64,000 bases of DNA. It comes from Candidatus Zixiibacteriota bacterium. GTDB taxonomy: Bacteria; Zixibacteria; MSB-5A5; GN15; PGXB01. Under the pieces are notes generated by a model. It had not been told where the DNA came from and ran no database searches. It saw only the letters and a program-made list of their open reading frames with translations. Both the position numbers and the translations under genes were made by a program. The DNA lies in the NCBI GenBank assembly GCA_900498245.1, contig LS998015.1, forward strand, positions 2,272,734-2,336,733, given 5' to 3'. Positions within the stretch are counted from its first letter, which is position 1. Every line of letters begins with the position of its first letter. Positions 1 through 13,465 of the stretch are shown one piece after another.

Positions 1-1392
1 ATTCTGAACTAAGACTTCTCTATTGCAATGCTCCCAATCCCTCGGCAGATGACTTGCATAGAGAGCAAGTATTGCCCGGCTTAGGCGTCCCCTTGAACTG
101 TATGAAGAAGTGCGAAGTTGTTCCTTATTAATTAAGAACCGTGCGAATTGGTAAGGTTGCTGTTGCTTTTCTTTATCAAGGAAATCCAAATGCTGGAATA
201 GATGTGATGTATTACTCAATAAATCGTCATTGTGGAAACTGTAATACCAAAAATATGCGGCCAAAAAACTGTAATTGGGATTATCATTCCTATAAAAATA
301 GTCTGCGACGGTCAAATAAAAATAACGGGACGGCATTAAGTATGGCGTCTTAATATGAAGATGATTTTCGAAAAAGTCAAAAGTTTTTAACATTGCTTCT
401 TTTGCATTATTCCAGACCGCGAGTATTTGGTCTGTTTTGATTTCATTGAGATAGCGGTCGGTAATATTTCCAACTCCTGAATTGGCTATGTGCCGATTTA
501 TAATTATGGCAAGCATTTGTAAATAATCTAAATCGCCTATGGCCATAAATTCGCTGCGGTTGGTCTTCCTAAAATCATCAATAAGCTCACGCAAATAGAA
601 GCCACTCTCCTTTTGGGTCTTAGCCCTGAAGGTTTTAGCCACAACTATATCAAAAATGCATAGTAGCTTACCAGCCTGATTGATACGTTCAAAAATTTGG
701 CAGACTTCTGCAACCTGAATGCCCCTTACTTCAATAAATGACATGCGATAATTATCAAGAATGTCTCTCAATCTTCTGAGTTCCTTGCGGACTGGCGTAT
801 CATAATCTCTAAAATCGCCCGTCGGATTTTCAACGAGGCGCCTTTCAACTGCTCCACAATTGTTTTTAATATCTATTAGTTTTATTATTAAACCTTCGTC
901 AAATTTTTTCCTTTTGGGAATATTTTGTCGTATTTCACCATTTCTATCGTCTATCTCATCCCAAAATATGAAACGATTTTTATAGCTTTCATCATCTATC
1001 TCGTTGTCGGTTTGGATTTCTGAATCAACATAAATTGTCGGGTCAAACCCCGGCTTATTCTCTATTCTCCCGCCATGTAGCGAAGTGAGCAATGAAGTAG
1101 TTCGTTGCTGGCCATCGAGAATATATTGATATTCTGTTCTGGCAAACTCTGGGTCAGTAATCTGGTGTCCGCCGATATATCTGTGGTTCTGCAATTTCAA
1201 ATCAGTTTTCCATATTAGAATGCTGCCCAAAGGATAAAATTTGTATATACTGTCCCAAAGCTTTTTGACATTGCCTTTCTCCCAAACCACTTCTCTTTGA
1301 AAAGTAGGGATCTGATAGTTTTTGTTTAGCAACTCATCAAGATAGGTTGTCAGGCCTTTATTGGTTGGATAAATTCTGTCTATATAGCTCAC
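1..1392 (-). CDS. DUF262 (GmrS-like) protein, 3' end outside window
   Basis: The frame is open for 464 codons and runs off the left edge, so the C-terminus is missing. I chose the GTG at 1392 because AAGGAG lies 8 nt upstream. The DUF262 domain is clear: IPTFQREVVW at residues 28-37 and ILDGQQRTTSLL at 91-102, the latter holding the DGQQR signature of this ParB/Srx-related nuclease-like fold. Many family members end in a DUF1524 HNH nuclease domain, as in GmrSD type IV restriction enzymes; that part would lie outside the window. The gene starts 82 nt after a PD-(D/E)XK nuclease-like gene on the same strand, so the two probably form a defence or restriction module. The family call is firm; the role in DNA restriction is an inference. 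Confidence 0.85.
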   Translation of the reverse strand, partial: MSYIDRIYPTNKGLTTYLDELLNKNYQIPTFQREVVWEKGNVKKLWDSIYKFYPLGSILIWKTDLKLQNHRYIGGHQITDPEFARTEYQYILDGQQRTTSLLTSLHGGRIENKPGFDPTIYVDSEIQTDNEIDDESYKNRFIFWDEIDDRNGEIRQNIPKRKKFDEGLIIKLIDIKNNCGAVERRLVENPTGDFRDYDTPVRKELRRLRDILDNYRMSFIEVRGIQVAEVCQIFERINQAGKLLCIFDIVVAKTFRAKTQKESGFYLRELIDDFRKTNRSEFMAIGDLDYLQMLAIIINRHIANSGVGNITDRYLNEIKTDQILAVWNNAKEAMLKTFDFFENHLHIKTPYLMPSRYFYLTVADYFYRNDNPNYSFLAAYFWYYSFHNDDLLSNTSHLFQHLDFLDKEKQQQPYQFARFLINKEQLRTSSYSSRGRLSRAILALYASHLPRDWEHCNREVLVQN

Positions 1393-1474: not shown

Positions 1475-1924
1475 TTATCTTATCCTGACCGCCGTACCCT
1501 GCTTTTCTTCATATTCCCACACCTCAACATCCTTAGGGATGAGATGAGAATTTGTCCGAATGTAGTACTCGCCAAGAGTTTCTTTTTTCCTGCCACTGAA
1601 ATCCCTTAGAACAAATAGGATTTTCCTGTAAATGGACGGGGCCGCAAGGAAAAACAACATAACTTCGTTCCACACCGTCAACTTTGCGCTTGGAACATTA
1701 TCGCTTTCAGTCCATTTGTGTGCTTTGCACTCCACTAGTATTTTCTCTGTTTTATTTCCAAGATCGAAGTTATGAGGTTTGAATCCATTAATTCTAATTT
1801 GGACTGAAACGCGTCGCGTCAGATGCAAGCCTTGTTTAGCAAAAAAATGCTGAGCCAAAGTCTCAAATTCACGTCCAACATCGGCATTGCTTAAAGCACC
1901 TTTGCGTTGAAAAGGTTTGTCCAC
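1475..1924 (-). CDS. PD-(D/E)XK nuclease-like protein
   Basis: This 149-residue protein has a restriction-endonuclease-like core: FDLGN with Asp54, then VECKA with Glu65 and Lys67, which gives a D...ExK pattern about ten residues apart. A helical N-terminus (FETLAQHFFAKQG, about 20-32) comes before the core, as in Mrr/RecB-like nucleases. The start is a GTG at 1924 with a GAAGGG-like ribosome site just upstream. It sits directly 5' of the DUF262 gene and probably shares its transcript. The likely role is DNA cleavage within a restriction module; target and specificity cannot be read. It could also be an inactive structural homologue, since only the core motif supports the call. Confidence 0.6.
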   Translation of the reverse strand: MDKPFQRKGALSNADVGREFETLAQHFFAKQGLHLTRRVSVQIRINGFKPHNFDLGNKTEKILVECKAHKWTESDNVPSAKLTVWNEVMLFFLAAPSIYRKILFVLRDFSGRKKETLGEYYIRTNSHLIPKDVEVWEYEEKQGTAVRIR

Positions 1925-2624
1925 ATTATTCCCTTCAGCGAATAATAATTGAATTGGTGCTCACCGCGTTACGCAATTTATTTTCCCGAAGCTAATCGCA
2001 CACTGAACTAAGATTGTCCAATGAGTAATTTGGGATTAACCTTAGTCATAATCAATATAAAAATATTAGAAGCAAAACTCCACTAATTTGATCTATTTAT
2101 CTGTTTGGCTATGAAATGCAAAGATCGTCAACCGTCTGCTGAATCGTTTGGGTCGCTTTTAAGTCCCAGGCGTCCGCCAATTCCACCACTCCGGCAATTG
2201 GTTTCGCGGTAGTAAGTTGGGGATTTCTGAGACGGGGCGTAAGGGATTAAAAATCACTGGTGTAGTCAGTTCAGTTGAGGCTAAGTCGTCGAATAGTGGA
2301 ATTCTCTTGCCATATTGAAATGGGGCGGAACCAGTCACAAATTCGTCACACGGGGAATGGATGCCTGTTGTGATCTTCTAGGATCGTCAGGCCACCAGGG
2401 GCTCTACTTCTGCATCGCCCGATTTCTGGGGAGCTTACGAATCCCTTCTACTCAGAATCAGATGATTGAAATCAATCATGATACTGAGGACGTTGCGTTC
2501 ATACTTCGGCAAGTTCTGAGATTTCCTGTTCGCCGCCGTGCAACTGAATATGGTGCCCCCACTATTCTATCAAGATGTGATGAATGCAAGGTCGATTCGG
2601 ATTCTAACTTCTGACGAATTGAGG
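1925..2624. other. Non-coding gap holding tRNA-Leu half copy A
   Basis: No convincing gene lies here. The open frame at 2315-2614 (+) has no ribosome site and an unconvincing composition. The only recognisable element is the truncated tRNA-Leu copy at 2144-2195. The rest separates the 3' end of the eight-gene cargo operon from the nuclease/DUF262 module, and its left half is AT-rich. I see no terminator with a U-run after the last cargo gene. Confidence 0.6.
2144..2195 (-). repeat. Truncated tRNA-Leu(UAA) 5' half, copy A (att-like direct repeat)
   Basis: Read on the minus strand from 2195, this has a tRNA-Leu acceptor (GCCGGAG), a D-arm (GTGGAATTGGCGGACGC) and an anticodon arm ending in the loop CTTAAAA, with anticodon TAA. 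Where the 3' side of the anticodon stem should be, the sequence changes to GCGACCC, and no variable arm, T-arm or 3' acceptor follows. A second copy at 10045-10097 has the same orientation and matches at about 42 of 52 aligned positions, including a GCGAYCCnnACGA tail that is not tRNA sequence. The pair looks like integration sites around the cargo operon. Confidence 0.8.
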
Positions 2625-3365
2625 TCAGACTCTTCGCGACTCAGCTTGCCCATTTGAAAGGTTAACACGAGTCCAATCAGTGGAGCGCAGCGGCCATGGA
2701 CAAAAGTCAAAAACCACTCTCGATCCGATTGCGACCAAAGACGCGGAGGTGGTGCCATAGGTAGGATTAGTAAATGAAGTTACTGCCATATTAGCGATGA
2801 ATTCTTGCCAAGGCCTGTGCGCATAGTCATCTGGTCCGCTTGTATCCGCCCAATGTCGACAACCTGTTAGGTCAATGTGTAGTCTCCGTAGTGCGGAATA
2901 TCTTTGGTCGCGTGGATTGTCCAAATCCCCTGACGAAATGTGGTGAAACCCCAAATTATACGCGCGCTGTTCAAACGAGCGGCCATTCCATCGCCACCAT
3001 TTAACGCAGTTGGCATCCAGTAACAGCAAGTTGAACGGGAGATATCTGGACAGGTCCAAGGCGTACACCCCTGCCGGTCCCAATGCGGCAGCAATTAGCG
3101 GAAGTTCTCCTCGGCTCCAGATTCTGCGCGGAGCTTGTATTTTCTCTTCCCTATTCAGTATAATCGAGGTACGACGTGTGGGTAGATGTACGGCTAACCA
3201 TGTTCCTCCCCCTTGCAGATCTAAGCCACCCACAGTATCCGGGAAATCCGTCTCCCACCATCTATGTGGAGGTTTCCATCCTCGGGAGCGCACTTCATCG
3301 CGCACACAAGCTAAAGTGACCGGCCATCGTGAATTGGGGCTTATTACAATAGTCGCAGTGCACAT
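2625..3365 (-). CDS. NRDE/TANGO2-family protein
   Basis: This 246-residue protein opens with Met-Cys-Thr and has the family's ordered motifs: VRDE at 21-24 (usually NRDE), a Pro/Trp-rich stretch, GGLDLQGGGTW at 46-56 and NREE at 71-74. The NRDE/TANGO2 family is thought to have an N-terminal-nucleophile hydrolase fold, in which Cys2 would become the reactive N-terminal residue once Met1 is removed. TANGO2 proteins have been linked to haem or acyl-CoA handling, but the chemistry here is unknown. It is the last gene of the cargo operon, 35 nt after the preceding gene. In a cluster with a ligase and a carrier protein it might act on an amide or thioester product; that is inference. Confidence 0.7.
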   Translation of the reverse strand: MCTATIVISPNSRWPVTLACVRDEVRSRGWKPPHRWWETDFPDTVGGLDLQGGGTWLAVHLPTRRTSIILNREEKIQAPRRIWSRGELPLIAAALGPAGVYALDLSRYLPFNLLLLDANCVKWWRWNGRSFEQRAYNLGFHHISSGDLDNPRDQRYSALRRLHIDLTGCRHWADTSGPDDYAHRPWQEFIANMAVTSFTNPTYGTTSASLVAIGSRVVFDFCPWPLRSTDWTRVNLSNGQAESRRV

Positions 3366-3400: not shown

Positions 3401-4555
3401 TTATAGCGGTATAACGTAGCTCGCGTCGACGAGTGGTATCAATACGTCATCTGCAAGAAGCTCAACACGCATGAGTGAAACAAATGACCATTTCGCATTG
3501 TCACCAACAAGTCGGTGTACAGTGTTCATATTAGCTAAAGCCATTTGTGTGTCCGTAAACGCCTGTGCGGCTCCCAATACTCCCGCGGTATGCACGCCCT
3601 GAATAAGAACTATTGTTCGTTCAGGATTGAATGGATTTGCGAACCGCGCAAACAGCCCGACATCGGCTATCAGTTCCCCGCTTTCCGTGAACTCTGACAG
3701 TAGCCAACGTTTAATATTCCCTACAGCAAAGCTTAGGGCAGGAGGCGATTCTTGATAGTTGACTCCAATTGCCACCCGTTGCATTATCTCCCTCGCAATG
3801 ACATTGCCGTCGTTCTCGTCCCCGAAACCCGGACCGCCTATTACTATTAAGTCATCTCTGAGATGTTGGCGAGCCGGGAATTCATTGGGAGTGTAAGGGA
3901 TCACGCGGATACCATATAGGCGAGATAGAAACATTGCCACTTCCAAGAAAGCATCCTTGTCGCCGAATTTATCGAGGTGAATGTAGTTCGGCGAAGACCT
4001 AGACGCCGACGGGAGGTTGTCATAGGATGGCGGACAAATCACGTGAACGTCACGGCTATGCTGGCCGAACCAAATCAGAGATGCGAGTTGCTCGTGCCAC
4101 TGCGTTCCTCGTTCCCAGCAATCGACTACTGCTTGCCAGAATACCGCAAGTTGATTGTCAGCTTCTCGTTCTTCAATTGCATTCTTGAGTGACTCGTAAA
4201 TAACAAGGCAACTCGGTGCTTCTACAAATATACCTGCACTCAGGCTCTGCGACCTCTTGGAGCGAAGTAGTAGACAAGGAATAGTCTTCGCAGCTACCTT
4301 CCCGCAAATATATGCCATTCTTTTGTCTTCCTCAGATACTTCAATCACGGCTCCATCAACAGAGTCAATCAGATTCTCCTCAGATATCGTTAGCTGGTGA
4401 TTGTCATCAAGCAGCAGCACTTCTGTTTCGACGTCGAACCTACCTGTCGCAAGAGCCAAGACGTGCGAACGGAGGGTAGAGGCGAGACTGCGCGCGTCTT
4501 CCGGGCTATATGACTCCGTGTGAGAAGTCCGGAGGCAGCAGACAAGAAACTTCAC
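3401..4555 (-). CDS. Unrecognised two-domain protein: TIR/deoxyribosyltransferase-like N-terminus, IGGPGFG C-terminus
   Basis: The protein has 384 residues from a GTG at 4555, chosen because it lies 2 nt after the upstream stop and 8 nt after AAGGAG; an earlier in-frame ATG at 4633 would sit inside the previous gene. I do not recognise the whole protein. Residues 67-98 (DGAVIEVSEEDKR, then AKTIPCLLLR) resemble the strand-helix-strand pattern of nucleoside-deoxyribosyltransferase/TIR-like folds, which in conflict systems bind or cleave nucleotides. The C-terminal half has IGGPGFGDENDGN at 239-251 and a hydrophobic strand-Gly-His segment at about 307-325 (PFNPERTIVLIQGVH), which looks like a second alpha/beta nucleotide-handling domain. 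No transmembrane segment is seen. It is seventh in the cargo operon. Confidence 0.6.
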   Translation of the reverse strand: MKFLVCCLRTSHTESYSPEDARSLASTLRSHVLALATGRFDVETEVLLLDDNHQLTISEENLIDSVDGAVIEVSEEDKRMAYICGKVAAKTIPCLLLRSKRSQSLSAGIFVEAPSCLVIYESLKNAIEEREADNQLAVFWQAVVDCWERGTQWHEQLASLIWFGQHSRDVHVICPPSYDNLPSASRSSPNYIHLDKFGDKDAFLEVAMFLSRLYGIRVIPYTPNEFPARQHLRDDLIVIGGPGFGDENDGNVIAREIMQRVAIGVNYQESPPALSFAVGNIKRWLLSEFTESGELIADVGLFARFANPFNPERTIVLIQGVHTAGVLGAAQAFTDTQMALANMNTVHRLVGDNAKWSFVSLMRVELLADDVLIPLVDASYVIPL

Positions 4556-4557
4556 AG

Positions 4558-5181
4558 TCAGATCTCCTTTCCACCAGGTGTTCTGTGTAGACGCGAGCGT
4601 AGAAAGCCACGCCATTTCGACATTGATTGCCATTGTCCTCGATAAACGACCGTTTGCGGAGGAATATCAGTCCTTACGATTTCGCGAGCGCCGATGTAGG
4701 CCCCTTCACCGATTGTAACTCCACCGATAATCAATGCGTCAACACCGACAACACAACCACGCCTAAAAATCGGGGACGGTTCGTCCGTCGTATCCCAGTC
4801 TGCTGTAGGATCCCTGTGGGAATGCGCGATTGAACCCATGAATGTAACATCATCTTCAAGTACAACGCGCTCGCTCACGTCGCCGCCAACGATGCAGCGA
4901 CGCCCAATTGTGCATCGATTAAACAATTGTGATCCGTATAGAACTTTCGTTCCTTGCCCCACCGTTACTCCGACACCAACACGGCAATAATGATCAATCG
5001 CGACATCACTACCTATAGAAGAATCCCAATGAATGACACAGAAAGCACCAATCGTTACTCCAGATCCTAATCGAGGGGGTGCGGCGCCATCACCCTCACC
5101 AATGATGGTTGCATGACCAACTACTAGATCATCGGGAATAGCGACTTTCGGATGTATCCATGCTGTCGGAGAAATTACCAC
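4558..5181 (-). CDS. Left-handed beta-helix (hexapeptide) acyltransferase
   Basis: The 207-residue protein is made largely of hexapeptide turns (for example VTIGAF, SDVAID, VTVGQG, CTIGRR, VTIGEG) from about residue 8 to 175, which predict a trimeric left-handed beta-helix. AHSHRDP near the middle could supply the catalytic histidine common in the WbbJ/CysE-like O- or N-acetyltransferase superfamily. The start is a GTG that directly abuts the stop of the upstream hydrolase gene, with GGGGGAG just upstream, so translation is coupled. In this operon it probably moves an acetyl or other acyl group from CoA, or from the carrier protein, to a sugar or amine. The acceptor cannot be inferred from sequence. 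Confidence 0.85.
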   Translation of the reverse strand: MVISPTAWIHPKVAIPDDLVVGHATIIGEGDGAAPPRLGSGVTIGAFCVIHWDSSIGSDVAIDHYCRVGVGVTVGQGTKVLYGSQLFNRCTIGRRCIVGGDVSERVVLEDDVTFMGSIAHSHRDPTADWDTTDEPSPIFRRGCVVGVDALIIGGVTIGEGAYIGAREIVRTDIPPQTVVYRGQWQSMSKWRGFLRSRLHRTPGGKEI

Positions 5182-5994
5182 TTACATCTCCCCCTTATGT
5201 AGGAACCGGACAAGCATATCGTATACACGTCGATGATTCTGCAATGTTTCCGGCCAATCAAGATCATTATCTCCTGGAACAGCAAATCCATGGTCAACAT
5301 TTGGGAAATCGATGAGCTTCACTACCGGGAAGCGACAGGCGTAGTTCTGCGAATTGAGATGGGGAACTCCTGTGTCGGCGGTGCCATGAATTATTATAGT
5401 CGGGCAGGACGGGGGAGGCGCAGCACTGAAGTAAGGGAACTCCGCTATGATCTGGCGCGAGAATGGCCGGCCGGATGTCATAAGGTAGTGGTTGGCATCC
5501 AGGTTGTCCCTGGCAGCATCATTCAAGCCTAACATGCGATTGCCAAGACCCTCATACTCAATGTAATCGTAGGAATAGTCTAGAACAGGCGCTAACAACA
5601 CCACCGACCGTAAATTGTGGGTCGTTGTTCTACTCCATGCCACAGAAACGCCACCACCAAAGGACGCAGCTATGAGATCAAGACTGTCGGCACCGGTACT
5701 CTCAACCAGTGCACAAGCAGCGGCTTCAATATCGTTGGCTATGCCTGCAAGCGTGAGTTCGGCAATAGGACGATCACGGTCGACACCATAGCACCGCCAG
5801 TCAAAGCGGAAAGACGCGATACCGGCTTTTGCGAAAGCTGCGGCCATTCGCAGATAAAAACCCCATTCGTCTCTATCGGAATCAATTCCATGAACCAACA
5901 ACGCAAAATGCGAAGGAATTGAATTTGGTACGCATAGGGTTCCCTCAAGTGGGACGCCATCAAATGAGCGAAATGAAACGATCCGTTCTTTCAT
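5182..5994 (-). CDS. Alpha/beta hydrolase (possible thioesterase or acyl hydrolase)
   Basis: This 270-residue alpha/beta-hydrolase-fold protein has a complete apparent catalytic triad: nucleophile Ser111 in AASFGGG, Asp207 in GTADTGVP and His235 in NVDHGF. LLVHGIDSD at 32-40 gives the oxyanion-hole region. It resembles serine hydrolases of the YheT/FrsA/dienelactone type more than classic type II thioesterases. It overlaps the carrier-protein gene upstream by 4 nt (ATGA) and abuts the acyltransferase gene downstream. Placed right after the acyl carrier protein, it may release or edit thioesters, but it could equally deacylate a surface sugar. Confidence 0.8.
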   Translation of the reverse strand: MKERIVSFRSFDGVPLEGTLCVPNSIPSHFALLVHGIDSDRDEWGFYLRMAAAFAKAGIASFRFDWRCYGVDRDRPIAELTLAGIANDIEAAACALVESTGADSLDLIAASFGGGVSVAWSRTTTHNLRSVVLLAPVLDYSYDYIEYEGLGNRMLGLNDAARDNLDANHYLMTSGRPFSRQIIAEFPYFSAAPPPSCPTIIIHGTADTGVPHLNSQNYACRFPVVKLIDFPNVDHGFAVPGDNDLDWPETLQNHRRVYDMLVRFLHKGEM

Positions 5995-6254
5995 ATACAG
6001 TTCTCCTCTTGAGCAGCGACAAAAACCTCGATCTCGGCTACGCTTGTCAAATGCTCAATAGCGTCGTCAGGGATCTCGATTTCAAACATTTCCTCTAAAG
6101 CTAGAATGATATTTATCTGAGCCAAAGAGTCCCAGTTCTGTGTTCTATAAATACCAGAATCAGCAACAATGTCAGCAGTGTCTATATCGAGAATTCGAGC
6201 AATTAGTGCGTGAAGGGATGCAATTCTCGACGATCTGGGAGACGCCTCATTCAT
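5991..6254 (-). CDS. Acyl (or peptidyl) carrier protein
   Basis: The protein has 87 residues with the four-helix carrier-protein pattern and the phosphopantetheine site WDSLAQ, placing the attachment serine at Ser43. The start of helix II is followed by the acidic EEMFEIEIPDD, typical of acyl carrier proteins. It overlaps the adenylate-forming ligase by 8 nt upstream and the hydrolase by 4 nt downstream. This pairing suggests the ligase activates an acyl or aminoacyl group and loads it on this protein. No phosphopantetheinyl transferase is in the cluster, so a housekeeping one would have to serve. It is a stand-alone accessory carrier and not the fatty-acid AcpP, because no fab genes are nearby. 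Confidence 0.9.
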   Translation of the reverse strand: MNEASPRSSRIASLHALIARILDIDTADIVADSGIYRTQNWDSLAQINIILALEEMFEIEIPDDAIEHLTSVAEIEVFVAAQEENCI

Positions 6255-7641
6255 ATAAACTATGACTCCGGGCGGCTAAGAGACTAGCGGCCTGATAATC
6301 GACTTTCATTGATGGTAGACGCGGAATTCGCGATACATGTGCGACACGAACTGGCCAAAGATTGCGAGGAATCTCCTGAAGTGCCAAGCGCACCCGATTG
6401 GCGCGGTCATCATTCGATCCTTCTATCAACAAGACTAGCCCGCTAGAGTTACTGAAGAGACAGCAAGAAGAACAAACAACTGCTGAAACTCGTCGCTCAA
6501 GCGGCTCTGGTGAGACCAAAACGCCGTGATAATTGAAGCGACGGTCGAGACGACCAACAACAGCAAGAGTGCCGTCTTGCAGTTTGGTGACGGTGTCCCT
6601 AGTCTCGTGGCGTCCATTGAACGGCTGTACCGACAATCCAGTATTCGAACCTAATGCAAATTCGACATAGCCTACAGCTACGTGTTCGCTGAAAACAATG
6701 AGCTCTAAAGCTGAACGATCAGCTCGGATGGAAAAACTCCAGCCGTCTAATTCGGTGCCAATAGAGCAAGGGGCGTCTACTCCTGAAACTAGGTCATCGG
6801 TGACATCGGCAACGGAAGCGAATCCGTTAGTCTCAGTGGAACCATATGTGTTTAGGATGCGTGCAGCCGGAAATAACTTATGGGCGGCCTTCGCAATACC
6901 CGACGTCAACGTCTCGCCTCCAAAACCAACAAACCGCATCGCCGGATTCTCCGCGCCCACAGTTGAATTGCTAAACATCGAAATCCAAATTGGTACGGAG
7001 CGCCAATGAGTAGCGCCGAAACGTAGTAAAGAGCTAAATGCGCGAACCCTATCCGCAATACGAATCAACGGAACCCACGTAGAACCAGAGAAAAGCGAGA
7101 GAAAAAAATTAGTTAGGCTGAGATCTGAGGCGTTCGCGGGATCAGCTAACACAGCGCCTTCAGCGAGATGAAGGCGGTCGGAACCTCTCGACAGAAAAGC
7201 GTCATGCCCGTCGCGTGGTAGCAACACAGCTCGTACCGACCCTGTAGTGCCGGATGTGAGACCAACATACCTTAATGGCGGAAGATTGGTTCCCAATTTC
7301 CACTCCGCGTCGATAAGTCGTTGCACTGCGACGGAGGAGTCGCTGGCGTGCATGCGAACAGTCGCGCCAAGTTTCGTAATTACGTAGTCGAGAACTGCGG
7401 TAGTTTCAAGTCGGATGTTGCGTAATACGAAAGGTGTATCTCCAAGGACACATGCAGTAATTGCTATGTACGTACCGAGGCATATCTCCCCATCAATAAC
7501 TACAAGGTCACTATGTCGCAGCTTCTGTGCAAGAGACATCGCTTGAGTGACCAGGTCGCGCCAACAAAGTGGAGACTGGCCATCTACAGCATTGGCTAAG
7601 GCTTTCTTCCTGGAGTAGATGTTATCAGATAGAGTCGTCAT
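6247..7641 (-). CDS. Adenylate-forming acyl/aminoacyl ligase (ANL superfamily)
   Basis: From the ATG at 7641 the protein has 464 residues and the ordered ANL motifs: TSGTTG at 129-134 (ATP-binding loop), YGSTETNG at 266-273, GRLDRRFNYHG at 363-373 (hinge) and catalytic Lys446 in LPSMKVDY. It should activate a carboxylate as acyl-AMP and pass it to a thiol, most likely the carrier protein encoded next (8-nt overlap). At 464 residues it is somewhat short for the family. I chose the ATG at 7641, 7 nt after the upstream stop; an alternative start at 7719 would overlap that gene. The substrate is unknown. Confidence 0.85.
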   Translation of the reverse strand: MTTLSDNIYSRKKALANAVDGQSPLCWRDLVTQAMSLAQKLRHSDLVVIDGEICLGTYIAITACVLGDTPFVLRNIRLETTAVLDYVITKLGATVRMHASDSSVAVQRLIDAEWKLGTNLPPLRYVGLTSGTTGSVRAVLLPRDGHDAFLSRGSDRLHLAEGAVLADPANASDLSLTNFFLSLFSGSTWVPLIRIADRVRAFSSLLRFGATHWRSVPIWISMFSNSTVGAENPAMRFVGFGGETLTSGIAKAAHKLFPAARILNTYGSTETNGFASVADVTDDLVSGVDAPCSIGTELDGWSFSIRADRSALELIVFSEHVAVGYVEFALGSNTGLSVQPFNGRHETRDTVTKLQDGTLAVVGRLDRRFNYHGVLVSPEPLERRVSAVVCSSCCLFSNSSGLVLLIEGSNDDRANRVRLALQEIPRNLWPVRVAHVSRIPRLPSMKVDYQAASLLAARSHSLYE

Positions 7642-7648
7642 AGCTACA

Positions 7649-8524
7649 TTAAGGATCGAGTGTTGGTAGGTTGTATGTGGGCGTATTGCCGGTAAATGGT
7701 GCCTCCAGGATGTCCTCAAATTCGTCCACTACTCTTGCCCAAGAGTTGTCGGTGTGAACCTCAGACAACCTGATGAGGCCCCTGTCAAGTAATCGAATTG
7801 CACGGCGGAGCCGAGCACTTAGCTTTTTGCTTGCACGGCTTTCGATCCAGGCTAGTGCCCCTGCTGATACCGTAGTAGCTAGCCCAATCAAGCCTGCAGG
7901 ACCGCCCATGGATTGCGCGACTGCAAAACCAACTCCAACAATAGTAGCGCCGATCCCAAGAACTGTCCAGCGATTTGTGATAGATTCAAGTCGATCTGCT
8001 TCGCCCAAGTAGTCTCTTCGAATCCTCTCTATGCGCGAACGATATTCTGTCGCCTTCTCTGGAACTGGCGCGCTCCGCATTGATATCATTGATTCTGATG
8101 GACAAAGGTCGCGCCAATCTGCTCTATACGGCCAATCAGCACGACCGTACGCCTCGGCTATGTCGGTTTCTCGGTCCGCCTCCATCGACTGAAACTGAGA
8201 ATGATCGGTAATGGAACGCACGCTCGTTGCGGCAAACGCGTACCGGGCCGAGAGGCTTTCGAGCGCGCTAGCTGTCGCACGCAGAATCCCCAACTTCGTT
8301 TCGGGAACGGTTACAATTCGATACACCCATGCGCTAGCTGCGAGCAGGAATAGTGTGGCCGGCGCAAATGTCCAAGGCGGCCAGTGCATTGATTCCGTCA
8401 AACTGGCGAGAATAACGCCACCAATCTGGATACCTGTCGCAAGGGTGTCTCGGAACTTGCAGCGACGAGCTAGCATGGTGTAATGATTGACGGCGGTGAC
8501 ATGCAAAGCGGACGGACAAGTCAT
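7649..8524 (-). CDS. SLATT-like membrane protein with four TM segments
   Basis: This 291-residue protein has two pairs of predicted membrane helices, about 27-45 with 52-69 and 186-204 with 208-227. Each pair is preceded by a basic, Tyr/Arg-rich helix (HYTMLARRCKFRD; YRSRIERIRRDY). The second pair is followed by an amphipathic stretch (LSARLRRAIRLLDRGLIRL). This matches the pattern of SLATT domains (SMODS- and SLOG-associating two-TM effectors) and resembles proteins with two SLATT units in tandem. SLATT proteins are predicted membrane-disrupting effectors in nucleotide-signalling conflict systems. The gene overlaps the glycosyltransferase gene by 4 nt. The family assignment is from pattern memory and should be tested by profile search. 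Confidence 0.6.
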   Translation of the reverse strand: MTCPSALHVTAVNHYTMLARRCKFRDTLATGIQIGGVILASLTESMHWPPWTFAPATLFLLAASAWVYRIVTVPETKLGILRATASALESLSARYAFAATSVRSITDHSQFQSMEADRETDIAEAYGRADWPYRADWRDLCPSESMISMRSAPVPEKATEYRSRIERIRRDYLGEADRLESITNRWTVLGIGATIVGVGFAVAQSMGGPAGLIGLATTVSAGALAWIESRASKKLSARLRRAIRLLDRGLIRLSEVHTDNSWARVVDEFEDILEAPFTGNTPTYNLPTLDP

Positions 8525-9444
8525 GATACTACGACGTGCTCCTGGGTTTCTGGTCTATACTGATTGCGAAGCGATACAACAGGTTCGGGGTTTTGGATGC
8601 AACCCTCTGCGAGGTAAGCGGGCCAGGTGGCTCTGCCATTTATGATTGGGATGTAGTGTTGAGCACCAGTAGTGTATTCTCGACCTACATAAACAAGGCC
8701 GTCGATCACTACACCTGATCGCGCGGAATGTGCCAACAAAGCTCTTTGGCGATATTGATCAAGTTGAACACGTGCGCTGGAGTGGGAATCTGGTTGGAGG
8801 CGCGAATACCGGTACAATGGTTGCGCAACGTGGCACAAGTTTTGTGATCCGGCGGCACGTAGGATACGTAGGAAAAACTCCGTCATCTCACCCCATCGGT
8901 AATTCTCGTTGAATCCTTTTATTTCCAATACAAGATCTCGTGTCAATAGCTGGGGCTGAATAGCAAAAACCACAGAATGCCACGGGTCGAAAATTGTGCC
9001 TCCATACTCCTCATGAAGCTTCCCTAAATATGGTGCGGCGTACCGCCGGACAAAACGATCCGGAGATAGAACTAGACAATCACCAATTACAGCACAAGCG
9101 TTGGTCGATTGCGCCGAATTGTAGAGGCAAGCTAGCGCAGTTGCTTCGAGTTGATCATCGGCATCAAGCCAAGATATGTAGTCGCCGTGGGAGCACTTGA
9201 TCCCTAAATTGCGAGCGGCAGCGATGCCCGACGGACTTGACATAGATGCAAATCGAAAAGTCCGGTTGGTCGAGGAATATCGACGCGAGATCGGCATCAA
9301 CTGGTCAGCCATCTTCCAATCGGAGCCATCATTTACAACGATCGTTTCAATCTCATGATCAGTGGTCTGTAGCGCTATGCTTTCGAGGGCTCGACGGAGC
9401 AACATGAGCGGTGTATTTCGCCACGGAATTACAACGGATATCAT
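8521..9444 (-). CDS. Family 2 glycosyltransferase
   Basis: From the ATG at 9444 (MISVVIPWRN) the protein has 307 residues. GT-A motifs are intact: VVNDGSD at 36-42 (nucleotide-sugar binding), GIAAARNLGI at 73-82 and WLDADDQ at 92-98 (metal-binding DxD). It should move a sugar from a nucleotide-sugar to an unknown acceptor at the cytoplasmic side of the membrane. An upstream in-frame start at 9555 is unlikely because a good promoter (9526-9555) lies over it, and AGGGGG sits 9 nt before 9444. It is the first gene of the eight-gene operon, and its stop overlaps the next start by 4 nt. Confidence 0.85.
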   Translation of the reverse strand: MISVVIPWRNTPLMLLRRALESIALQTTDHEIETIVVNDGSDWKMADQLMPISRRYSSTNRTFRFASMSSPSGIAAARNLGIKCSHGDYISWLDADDQLEATALACLYNSAQSTNACAVIGDCLVLSPDRFVRRYAAPYLGKLHEEYGGTIFDPWHSVVFAIQPQLLTRDLVLEIKGFNENYRWGEMTEFFLRILRAAGSQNLCHVAQPLYRYSRLQPDSHSSARVQLDQYRQRALLAHSARSGVVIDGLVYVGREYTTGAQHYIPIINGRATWPAYLAEGCIQNPEPVVSLRNQYRPETQEHVVVS

Positions 9445-10319: not shown

Positions 10320-11255
10320 CTATACTCGTAGCGAGTTCGCCGGGCTATACAGCTCGTAAGAATTCACTAAGTCATTCGGCATGAGGTGGGCATAAACGGA
10401 TGTGACCGCCAAGCTGGTATGCCCCATGATCCGACTCAAGATCGCGGGACTGCCGCCCAGCCTTAAGTAATGCGTTGCCGCTGAATGTCGAATTAGGTGG
10501 GGGGCGAGCTTTATTCCGCACCGGAGGCCTGTCCGTTCAAAGATTTGGTGAATGTGCCGGTATGACAGAGGCTCTCCTGTTTTTGTGCAAAACAGCTTGT
10601 CACCACCCAGCTCAGCACGAAAGCGCGTAAGGTAGTAATGGAGAACTTTGACAACCTTTGCTCCCATAGGGACTTCCCTCCACTTCCGGCCCTTGCCAAG
10701 GACCCGAACCAAGCCAGCCTTGAGATCAACATGCTCGGTGGCCAACCCTGCGATTTCGGCACGCCTAAGCATACCATCCCAGGCCAGAAGCAAGAGCGCG
10801 AAGTTGCGGTAGCCCTCAAATGACCTGCGGTTGAGGCAGGACAGGGCAAGCTCATACTCGGTCGGGGTAACGATTTCCTTAACTTTCCGCTCGCACTTGA
10901 CCATTTTCAGGCCTTTAGTCGGATTTGGTTTTCCATCCCAGACGCCTTCTTCTTCAAGGTAGTTGAAAAATCGCCGGTAGGCCCGGATTCGGCCATTCAC
11001 GGTCTCATCTGAGACCTTACCCAACAACGCAAGCACATAACCCTGAAGATCACGCTTGGTAAGGTTATCAATATCGATGTGTTGAATGTCGAGATAGCGG
11101 GCCAAGTGGCCCAGCCGCTCAGCGTAAACATTGATCGTGGCTTCGGTGAGTCGACGCACTCGGCAGCCAAAAAGGAACGTATCGAGGTACGTCCGCCAAT
11201 TCTTCCCCATATAGAAATTGTCGACTTGGTTGTAGAGATTCTTGAGTTGGTTCAT
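10320..11255 (-). CDS. Tyrosine recombinase/integrase
   Basis: The 311-residue protein has an N-terminal SAM-like core-binding domain (about 15-110) and a complete catalytic domain: Arg164 in GMLRRAE, Lys188 in GKGRKW, His253 and Arg256 in PHLIRHSAA, His279 in MGHTSL and Tyr288 in SVYAH. It is XerC/D-like in size, without the long arm-binding domain of lambda-type integrases. The ATG at 11255 has AGGAG 7 nt upstream. It lies between tRNA-Leu copy B and the tRNA-Gly half, so it is the natural candidate for having moved the cargo. It is not the chromosomal XerC/D by context, although that cannot be fully excluded from sequence. Confidence 0.9.
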   Translation of the reverse strand: MNQLKNLYNQVDNFYMGKNWRTYLDTFLFGCRVRRLTEATINVYAERLGHLARYLDIQHIDIDNLTKRDLQGYVLALLGKVSDETVNGRIRAYRRFFNYLEEEGVWDGKPNPTKGLKMVKCERKVKEIVTPTEYELALSCLNRRSFEGYRNFALLLLAWDGMLRRAEIAGLATEHVDLKAGLVRVLGKGRKWREVPMGAKVVKVLHYYLTRFRAELGGDKLFCTKTGEPLSYRHIHQIFERTGLRCGIKLAPHLIRHSAATHYLRLGGSPAILSRIMGHTSLAVTSVYAHLMPNDLVNSYELYSPANSLRV

Positions 11256-11379: not shown

Positions 11380-11423
11380 ACTGCTTGGAAGGCTGTGACT
11401 CTAGCCAACTGAGTTACTCCCGC
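11380..11423 (-). pseudogene. Truncated tRNA-Gly(UCC) 5' half at island edge
   Basis: On the minus strand from 11423 the sequence reads acceptor GCGGGAG, D-arm ACTC-loop-GAGT, then an anticodon arm with loop CTTCCAA (anticodon TCC) closed by a stem with one A-A mismatch. It then runs into GACCCTACC, with no variable loop, T-arm or CTCCCGC 3' strand. It is therefore a 5' half cut just after the anticodon arm. It marks the boundary between the integrase and core-type sequence, and is probably the host tRNA gene that was split. Confidence 0.75.
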
Positions 11424-11554
11424 GAGCGGCAGGATTATATATATAATGTGGCCTTTCCGCAAGCGAATTTTCTTTTTCCCTGCCTCCCTGACCCGGGATT
11501 TCCCCGTCAATGATTCCAATATTAAAAAGAAATATCTCGGTATTTACATTTTAA

Positions 11555-11611: not shown

Positions 11612-13465
11612 ATGACAAAATTAAACAGGCTGTTAATTGCGGTTGCATTCGGCCTGATAATTTGTCTGGCTTCGGCCGGTATGGCGCAGTCCAACGCCGC
11701 CCCGGCCGGAACATCTGTCAGAAAACTCGATTATGTCGGCAGCGCCATGTGGACCGGCGCTCACGAGGTCCGTATGGCCGGCAATCTTGTCTATTGCGCC
11801 ATGCCTTATGGCCTGGAAGTCTTCGATATAAAAGACCCTTCTCATCCCCGAATGATCGGCCAATTCCTCACTGAGGGGACCGCCCATCGCATGGCTGTCG
11901 TCGACAGCGTAGTTTATCTGGCCGATGGTGAGGACGGCCTTCTCATAATAGACTTTTCCAACCCGTCAAGTCCGAAGATTCTCGGTAATGTCGATACGCC
12001 CGGTCATGCTTACGATGTCGAAATTTCCGGGAAATACGCCTTTATTGCCGACGGCGCGTCCGGACTGCAGGTTGTCGATATATCGAAACCTTCCGCCCCG
12101 AAATTGGTCGGAACCTACGATACCCCCGGAACCGCCTACGGTGTCGCTGTCATGGGCAAGTATGCTTATATCGCCGATGGAAAAGAGGGCCTGCAAGTGA
12201 TTAATATTTCCAATCCCAAATCGCCGCGCTGGACAGTCAGGGCAGACACACGGGGCGAAGCCAGGGATGTTTCTGTCGCCGGGTCATATGCCTACGTCGC
12301 CGCGGCGGACGAAGGACTGCATATTATCGATATCAAGAAGCCGACTGCCCCGTTCAGTATCGGATTTTACGATACCCCCGGTTTTGCCCGAGGTGTCGAA
12401 GTTGCCGGCAATCTGGCTTATGTCGCCGACGGTCACGCCGGATTACAGGTTATTGACGTTACCGTGCCCGATGCTCCCCGACCGATCGGTCATTGCGAAA
12501 CGCCCGGATATGCCGAGGGGGTGGCGGTTGCCGGAACCATCGCCTGTATCGGTGACGGTGACGCCGGCATGCAGGTCATCGACATTTCCAAACCGCAGAC
12601 GCCGCAGATTGTGGGAAGTCTTGGCCGGCCCGGTTATATCACCGATGTCGACATACTTGGTGATTATGCTTTTACCGCCTGTCATGATGCCGGATTAAGG
12701 ATCATCAAAGTCTCGGATCCGACTGCCCCGCAGTTGATAGGCGAATACAACACGCCCGGCTCCGCCACGGGCGTGCAGGTCCTGGACGGTTATGCTTTCA
12801 TCGCCGACGGCAGCGCCGGCCTGCAGATAGTCAATATCGCCGATCCGATGAAACCGGCGCTCGCAGGAACATACAATTCCATGTGGGTCACTGGCGATGT
12901 CGCGGTCGCGGGAAATTACGCCTATGTTGCCGACGGCGACCGGGGGCTGAAAATTGTCGATGTCACCAATCCGCAAAATCCCGATCTGGTCGGCCATCTC
13001 GATACCAACGGAAGCATCAATGGTGTCGCGGTTGAAAAGAATTACCTGTATGTGGCGGAAGGAAGCGCCGGAATGCTGATTGTCGATGTTACCGATCCGA
13101 CCAATCCGCGCGCAATCGGCTCTTATGATACCCCCGGCTATTCACTGGATGTCGCCGTAAACGGTAACTATGCTTATGTCGCCGACGGGGACGGCGGTCT
13201 GCAGATTATTGATATTTCCGACAAGACAAAACCGCTTCCGGTGGCGCTGATCAAGACCGATGGCACGGCCCGCAAGGTCGCGGTCGGAAATGGGAATCTC
13301 TATGTCGCCGATGACCTCGCCGGTGTCCTGGTGTATGATATGAAAAATCCGAAAGCCCCCCAACTGGCCGCCAACTATGACACCAAGGGACGGTGTTTCG
13401 GGGTGGCCTACAAAAATGGCTTCGTTTATGCCGCCGATCTGTACGGGTTGCTTATTCTGAAGTAA
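11612..13465 (+). CDS. Exported LVIVD-repeat beta-propeller protein
   Basis: The 617-residue protein has a signal peptide (hydrophobic run about 6-23, likely cut after AGMA). About 13 full repeats of roughly 42 residues and one partial repeat follow. A typical unit reads V.V.G.YAYVADG..GLQVIDIS.P..P..VG.YDTPG. These LVIVD repeats form beta-propeller blades. Near-regular phasing across the whole length suggests two propellers or one large closed toroid. It should act in the periplasm or at the surface; no enzyme motif is seen, so binding or adhesion is the likeliest role. The ATG has GGAGGTG 4 nt upstream. It is the first core-type gene beyond the island edge, and its repeat arrays are open to internal recombination. 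Confidence 0.9.
   Translation: MTKLNRLLIAVAFGLIICLASAGMAQSNAAPAGTSVRKLDYVGSAMWTGAHEVRMAGNLVYCAMPYGLEVFDIKDPSHPRMIGQFLTEGTAHRMAVVDSVVYLADGEDGLLIIDFSNPSSPKILGNVDTPGHAYDVEISGKYAFIADGASGLQVVDISKPSAPKLVGTYDTPGTAYGVAVMGKYAYIADGKEGLQVINISNPKSPRWTVRADTRGEARDVSVAGSYAYVAAADEGLHIIDIKKPTAPFSIGFYDTPGFARGVEVAGNLAYVADGHAGLQVIDVTVPDAPRPIGHCETPGYAEGVAVAGTIACIGDGDAGMQVIDISKPQTPQIVGSLGRPGYITDVDILGDYAFTACHDAGLRIIKVSDPTAPQLIGEYNTPGSATGVQVLDGYAFIADGSAGLQIVNIADPMKPALAGTYNSMWVTGDVAVAGNYAYVADGDRGLKIVDVTNPQNPDLVGHLDTNGSINGVAVEKNYLYVAEGSAGMLIVDVTDPTNPRAIGSYDTPGYSLDVAVNGNYAYVADGDGGLQIIDISDKTKPLPVALIKTDGTARKVAVGNGNLYVADDLAGVLVYDMKNPKAPQLAANYDTKGRCFGVAYKNGFVYAADLYGLLILK

Follow-up and report, generated by a model that had tools for sequence, protein, structure and literature searches.

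What does an orphan protein do in an operon that also encodes a SLATT membrane protein? This question is raised by a gene, here called X, at 3401..4555 on the minus strand of the window (the whole 64,000-nucleotide stretch of DNA that was analysed). The original prediction had described its product as a fusion of two alpha/beta halves, one resembling TIR or nucleoside deoxyribosyltransferase (NDT) domains and one carrying IGGPGFG, and had proposed a nucleotide sensor-effector lying beside a SLATT-like gene. Our analysis bore out part of this: X is an orphan made of two parts, and its operon includes a SLATT gene. Its reading frame is unbroken and represents a real ORF of 384 amino acids, which runs from a GTG start, preceded at 8 nt by a good Shine–Dalgarno sequence (AAAGGAG), to a TAA stop. 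An alternative ATG start (extending the gene to 4633) would create an overlap with the preceding gene, and this longer form is unnecessary. The protein is predicted to be soluble, with no signal peptide noticed.

Searches with X against the Pfam, NCBIfam, PADLOC and PHROGs models returned no family match. Full-length relatives were absent from every collection searched: we saw none in 131 further genomes from the phylum, in 296 genomes sampled from the phylum of a Bacteroidetes MAG (G132), in viral contigs, or in plasmids and phages at E 1. Given this lack of annotation and of relatives, X is either acquired or a very fast-evolving orphan. Two chance-level matches arose on the way: an NCBIfam line to BcsB (E 0.055), kept merely as a lead, and MAF1 of Toxoplasma, which was dropped as a relative. 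AlphaFold2 models of X alone and of residues 1-150 had very low confidence (pLDDT 36 and 43, respectively) and served solely to read the succession of strands and helices; Foldseek, queried with the 1-150 model, returned no match below E 0.49. The proposed division into two alpha/beta halves therefore stands for the C-terminal half by family membership, as described below, and for the N-terminal half comes from the strand and helix order of these two models.

At the level of sequence profiles, the C-terminal half (residues 166-384; 3404..4060, minus strand) belongs to the S_layer_C / BcsB-FD-like alpha/beta superfamily. A scan of genome contigs revealed one remote relative of this half, a domain at the C terminus of a Bacteroidetes protein that also matches phospholipase B and peptidase M1, and from the family of that domain, drawn from the phylum of G132 and the phylum of the window itself, a profile was built without X. 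When this profile was run against 659 decoy ORFs and 2000 shuffles of X, X ranked first (E 4.8e-5), with three BcsB proteins ranking after it, and HHalign aligned X to it with E 3e-6 over 90 columns (score 41.4, shuffles 12.4 ± 2.2 with a maximum of 16.8); part of the profile was gathered using an X-containing profile, so that the training sequences retain some dependence on X. A smaller family gathered without X also aligned to X (E 8e-5; 35.8 against 12.8 ± 2.2 for shuffles, maximum 17.9), over just 29 columns. The family takes in an S_layer_C (PF05124) domain and domains at the C termini of peptidase/esterase-like proteins; the flavodoxin-like domains of BcsB are linked to it more weakly. 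An X-including profile led to a surface-layer-like protein of the same order (L055), which scores above the Pfam cutoff for S_layer_C and weakly matches BcsB, and, in the PDB, to the S-layer protein 9fsa (E 0.006). X itself has no direct match to PF05124 or PF03170; as these were reached through an intermediate alone, we claim the superfamily for the C-terminal half and not those Pfam families.

Members of this family share a signature composed of a hydrophobic strand followed by G and, further on, N, then NPxNP(E/K), then a strand ending in G. In X the first part is IGGPGFGDENDGN (residues 239-251; 3803..3841, minus strand) and the second is NPFNPE (residues 307-312; 3620..3637, minus strand), which is followed by a hydrophobic strand and GVLGAA (325-330). 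An alignment of 11 sequences showed that G240 and N251 are invariant and that N307-P308 are nearly so, being missing in a Streptomyces relative; G241 and P242 vary, and X alone has an insertion, the six residues that follow P242. The glycine-containing motif is thus meaningful beyond chance, as had been suspected. Of the glycines in IGGPGF that were expected to be conserved, the first is invariant, whereas the second and the GF are not conserved. These variable positions and the family assignment lend no support to this half as a nucleotide sensor, and IGGPGFGDENDGN is not a nucleotide-binding signature. The S_layer_C / peptidase-associated / BcsB flavodoxin-like family is known from modules of the surface layer or the envelope. 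For a protein that goes without a name in the searched family libraries, the placement yields a structural prediction that can be tested; it also reveals the IGGP...NPFNP domain, with its ties to the S-layer, BcsB and peptidase-associated modules, in a version that Pfam does not recognise and in a predicted-soluble protein.

Comparison with individual relatives indicated how far this kinship extends. S_layer_C (PF05124) has the GG(A/P)...N and NP(F/W)(N/D)P(E/K) signatures in the same strand context as X; unlike it, X lacks a PF05124 match, is predicted to be soluble and has another N-terminal half attached. A profile trained on neither X nor BcsB found BcsB (PF03170) at both of its flavodoxin-like domains, FD1 and FD2, which share the N-P-x-N-P...G pattern with X, whereas X has none of the carbohydrate-binding domains, signal peptide or tail anchor of BcsB. 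The direct likeness between X and BcsB FD1 is weak (HHalign E 0.004). E. coli BcsB scores E 0.32 against the X-free profile and some other BcsB copies likewise fall near the best shuffle, which makes E. coli BcsB a weaker link in this chain of profile matches. The closest relative of the C-terminal half is a hypothetical protein on a plasmid of Streptomyces sp. NBC_01601 (WP_329020962.1; L002, 5551-6615), which first surfaced as a weak plasmid match in a search with the C-terminal half alone. The two are 26% identical over 179 aa (pairwise E 6e-8), GEL-AD and GVLGAA included. The Streptomyces protein differs in its N terminus, a possible sigma-70 region 4/HTH-like segment that is sub-threshold (Sigma70_r4_2 E 0.05), and its gene neighbours are unlike those of X.

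X is the seventh of eight genes in an operon on the minus strand. The operon starts with a family 2 glycosyltransferase (GT2; 8521..9444, frame open to 9555; Pfam, NCBIfam), followed by a membrane protein with two SLATT units (7649..8524; Pfam, NCBIfam, hydropathy), an adenylation (AMP-binding) enzyme of the amino-acid-adenylation/DltA-like type (6247..7641; Pfam, NCBIfam), an acyl carrier protein (ACP; 5991..6254; DSL serine motif, Pfam, NCBIfam), an alpha/beta hydrolase (5182..5994; Pfam) and a left-handed beta-helix (LbH, hexapeptide) acyltransferase that is NeuD/LpxD-like (4558..5181; Pfam, NCBIfam). X is followed by the last gene, which encodes a TANGO2 (NRDE)-like protein (2625..3365; PF05742, E 7e-16). 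Reading the sequence of the adenylation enzyme located its core motifs, TSGTTG, YGSTE, GRxD and the C-terminal lysine. The first seven genes are separated by gaps of 0-7 nt or overlap by 4-8 nt, with 35 nt before the last, and several have good ribosome sites. Promoter and terminator scans stayed at shuffle level. Searches of plasmids or viral contigs with the SLATT protein, the adenylation enzyme, TANGO2 and GT2 turned up no matching neighbourhood, the hits of the two large enzyme families having been inspected in part.

The SLATT protein, alone among the operon's products in being recognised as a membrane protein, consists of a SLATT_3-like unit (34-157) and a SLATT_1 unit (162-277); its Pfam values are E 1e-14 for PF18181 and E 1e-5 for PF18184, the latter narrowly under its cutoff. 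SLATT by Pfam and NCBIfam, it does share an operon with X, as the original prediction held, but the two genes are not adjacent, since four others lie between them. Few genomes of the phylum have SLATT (4 of 129), and no SLATT protein was found in 29 relatives. The other SLATT_1 proteins in the phylum (n=3) are short (140-182 aa), and in the three other genomes that have SLATT the enzymes of this operon are absent beside it. TIR and other nucleotide-related proteins are known partners of SLATT genes (PMC9503650; PMC7159879), and the literature that we searched has so far treated SLATT proteins as membrane effectors that respond to nucleotide signals. One such neighbourhood occurs in a genome of the same order (G033; L063, 6207-9840), where SLATT adjoins a TIR protein and a KGGVGR-type P-loop/pentapeptide-repeat protein; it is a typical SLATT conflict context of the kind described in PMC7159879 and PMC9503650. 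Like these SLATT/TIR conflict systems, the operon of X encodes a SLATT membrane protein with a soluble partner; unlike them, its SLATT is tandem and sits amid adenylation, ACP, acyltransferase and glycosyltransferase genes. Pfam, PADLOC and NCBIfam detected no SMODS, SLOG, TIR, STAND or P-loop signal generator or sensor among the eight genes, and a literature search returned no relevant paper joining SLATT to such a biosynthetic pathway. The combination of SLATT with a carrier-protein biosynthetic pathway in one operon suggests another type of signal or another job for SLATT.

Our tentative preference, which we hold at a little short of an even chance, is that X, a soluble and probably non-catalytic protein, plays an accessory part in a biosynthetic operon gained by horizontal transfer, acting as a scaffold or sensor coupled to SLATT. 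The adenylation enzyme would adenylate an amino or fatty acid and charge the ACP with the amino or acyl group, the LbH acyltransferase and the hydrolase would pass the ACP-bound group to a sugar-containing acceptor, and GT2 would attach a sugar. X would keep these enzymes in one assembly or detect what they make, with the tandem SLATT protein as the part of the system at the membrane. The C-terminal half would be a cytosolic version of the alpha/beta domain found as the outer domain of S-layers, at the C terminus of some peptidases/esterases and, more weakly, in BcsB, and the N-terminal half an orphan predicted alpha/beta domain with no recognisable active site. The flavodoxin-like domains of BcsB stack via beta-sheet complementation (PMC11470070), from which we infer an assembly or ligand-binding role for the C-terminal half. 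This role is putative, the function of the domain family being established in BcsB alone. We infer the coupling of X to SLATT from a single fact, their shared operon. Counting against this explanation, the nearest relative of the C-terminal half is perhaps regulator-like, which would fit a sensor better than a scaffold, and the kinship with E. coli BcsB is weak.

The main competitor hinges on the N-terminal half (residues 1-165; 4061..4555, minus strand), which is an orphan and predicted alpha/beta. If this half were a diverged TIR/DrHyd/SLOG Rossmannoid that binds a nucleotide or NAD+-derived signal, the C-terminal half might open or license SLATT in abortive defence. We consider this nucleotide sensor unlikely, if far from negligible, and hold the same view of its corollary, in which the biosynthetic genes would serve to produce or alter the signal. 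The known pairing of SLATT with TIR and nucleotide-related proteins (PMC9503650, PMC7159879), with its example in the same order, argues for it, as does a possible defence gene in the flank (DUF262/HEC-05-like, 1-1392). So does the best local match of the N-terminal half, in which HHalign to a five-member NDT profile (NPNVFYE-type proteins of the phylum) sets residues 63-99 on the expected strand-helix-strand. The score in that profile, however, equals the shuffle mean (11.4 vs 11.4 ± 2.1), and in a broader NDT profile X reaches z = 2.9, whereas left-out true members reach 9.9 to 19.7. A real TIR domain scores just z 1.7 in the broader profile, which means that this comparison is blind to distances of the TIR level. 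Pfam TIR, NDT and SLOG are silent on X even at E 10, with no TIR or SLOG from PADLOC and NCBIfam either, and the four biosynthetic genes between SLATT and X also weigh against a nucleotide sensor. The NDT/TIR strand pattern once read into residues 67-98 was not confirmed, and these profile scores do not support membership of the N-terminal half in the nucleoside deoxyribosyltransferase family; a Rossmannoid (TIR/DrHyd/SLOG-like) domain of distant origin is possible but unproven.

The same register, and the location of X amid pathway enzymes, would suit an enzyme, that is, an active deoxyribosyltransferase/NADase-like hydrolase or some other transferase step with the C-terminal half as assembly module. 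We regard this as very unlikely: the catalytic Glu of NDT, in (F/Y)E(L/I)G, falls on Ile83 of X in the HHalign register, which is itself uncertain, no enzyme family of Pfam or NCBIfam matches, and from a single sequence no conserved catalytic residues can be named. We give an equally slim chance to X being the regulator of the operon, its C-terminal half sensing the product or a cell-envelope cue and its N-terminal half serving as a diverged output domain. Such a role would agree with the Streptomyces protein, which combines its resemblance across the C-terminal half with a possible HTH-like N terminus, but that HTH is itself sub-threshold, no library finds an HTH in X, and position seven is unusual for an operon's own regulator. 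Improbable as well, if marginally less so, is a conflict or self-limitation system with a metabolite in place of a nucleotide as its signal: the adenylation, ACP, LbH and GT2 genes would make it from acyl- or aminoacyl-ACP, X would sense it through its cytosolic S-layer/BcsB-type domain and the tandem SLATT would execute the response.

The operon is probably an acquired island. Upstream of it lies a tyrosine integrase gene (10320..11255, minus strand; PF00589, E 2e-30), and integrase and operon are bracketed by two truncated tRNA 5' halves on the same strand, one tRNA-Gly (TCC)-like (about 11381-11425, minus strand; seen by eye, with a sub-threshold Rfam tRNA match) and one tRNA-Leu (TAA)-like (about 2156-2195, minus strand; by eye). 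Both stop just past the anticodon loop and may be marks of integration into tRNA anticodon arms. Searches turned up neither tRNA 3' halves nor complete tRNA genes in the window, no tRNA gene in the 16 kb upstream (L008), and no direct repeats of at least 16 nt around the island. The integrase and the two 5' halves around the operon suggest a mobile element of about 9 kb, and an acquired origin is supported by these edges together with the absence of X from 131 other genomes of the phylum and of SLATT from the 29 relatives. It is unusual for a mobile cluster to combine a biosynthetic pathway and a membrane protein predicted to be an effector from immune systems. The DUF262/HEC-05-like gene (1-1392, minus strand), a possible Mrr-like nuclease gene that is sub-threshold (1475-1924, minus strand) and a gene in L008 (9671-13288, minus strand) for a 1205-aa protein, which by eye resembles a STAND-type NTPase, form a neighbouring variable region. 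Just outside the island, on the plus strand (11612-13465), a 617-aa repeat protein has about a dozen GNYAYVADG..GLQIIDIS... repeats and looks, by eye, like an LVIVD-type beta-propeller.
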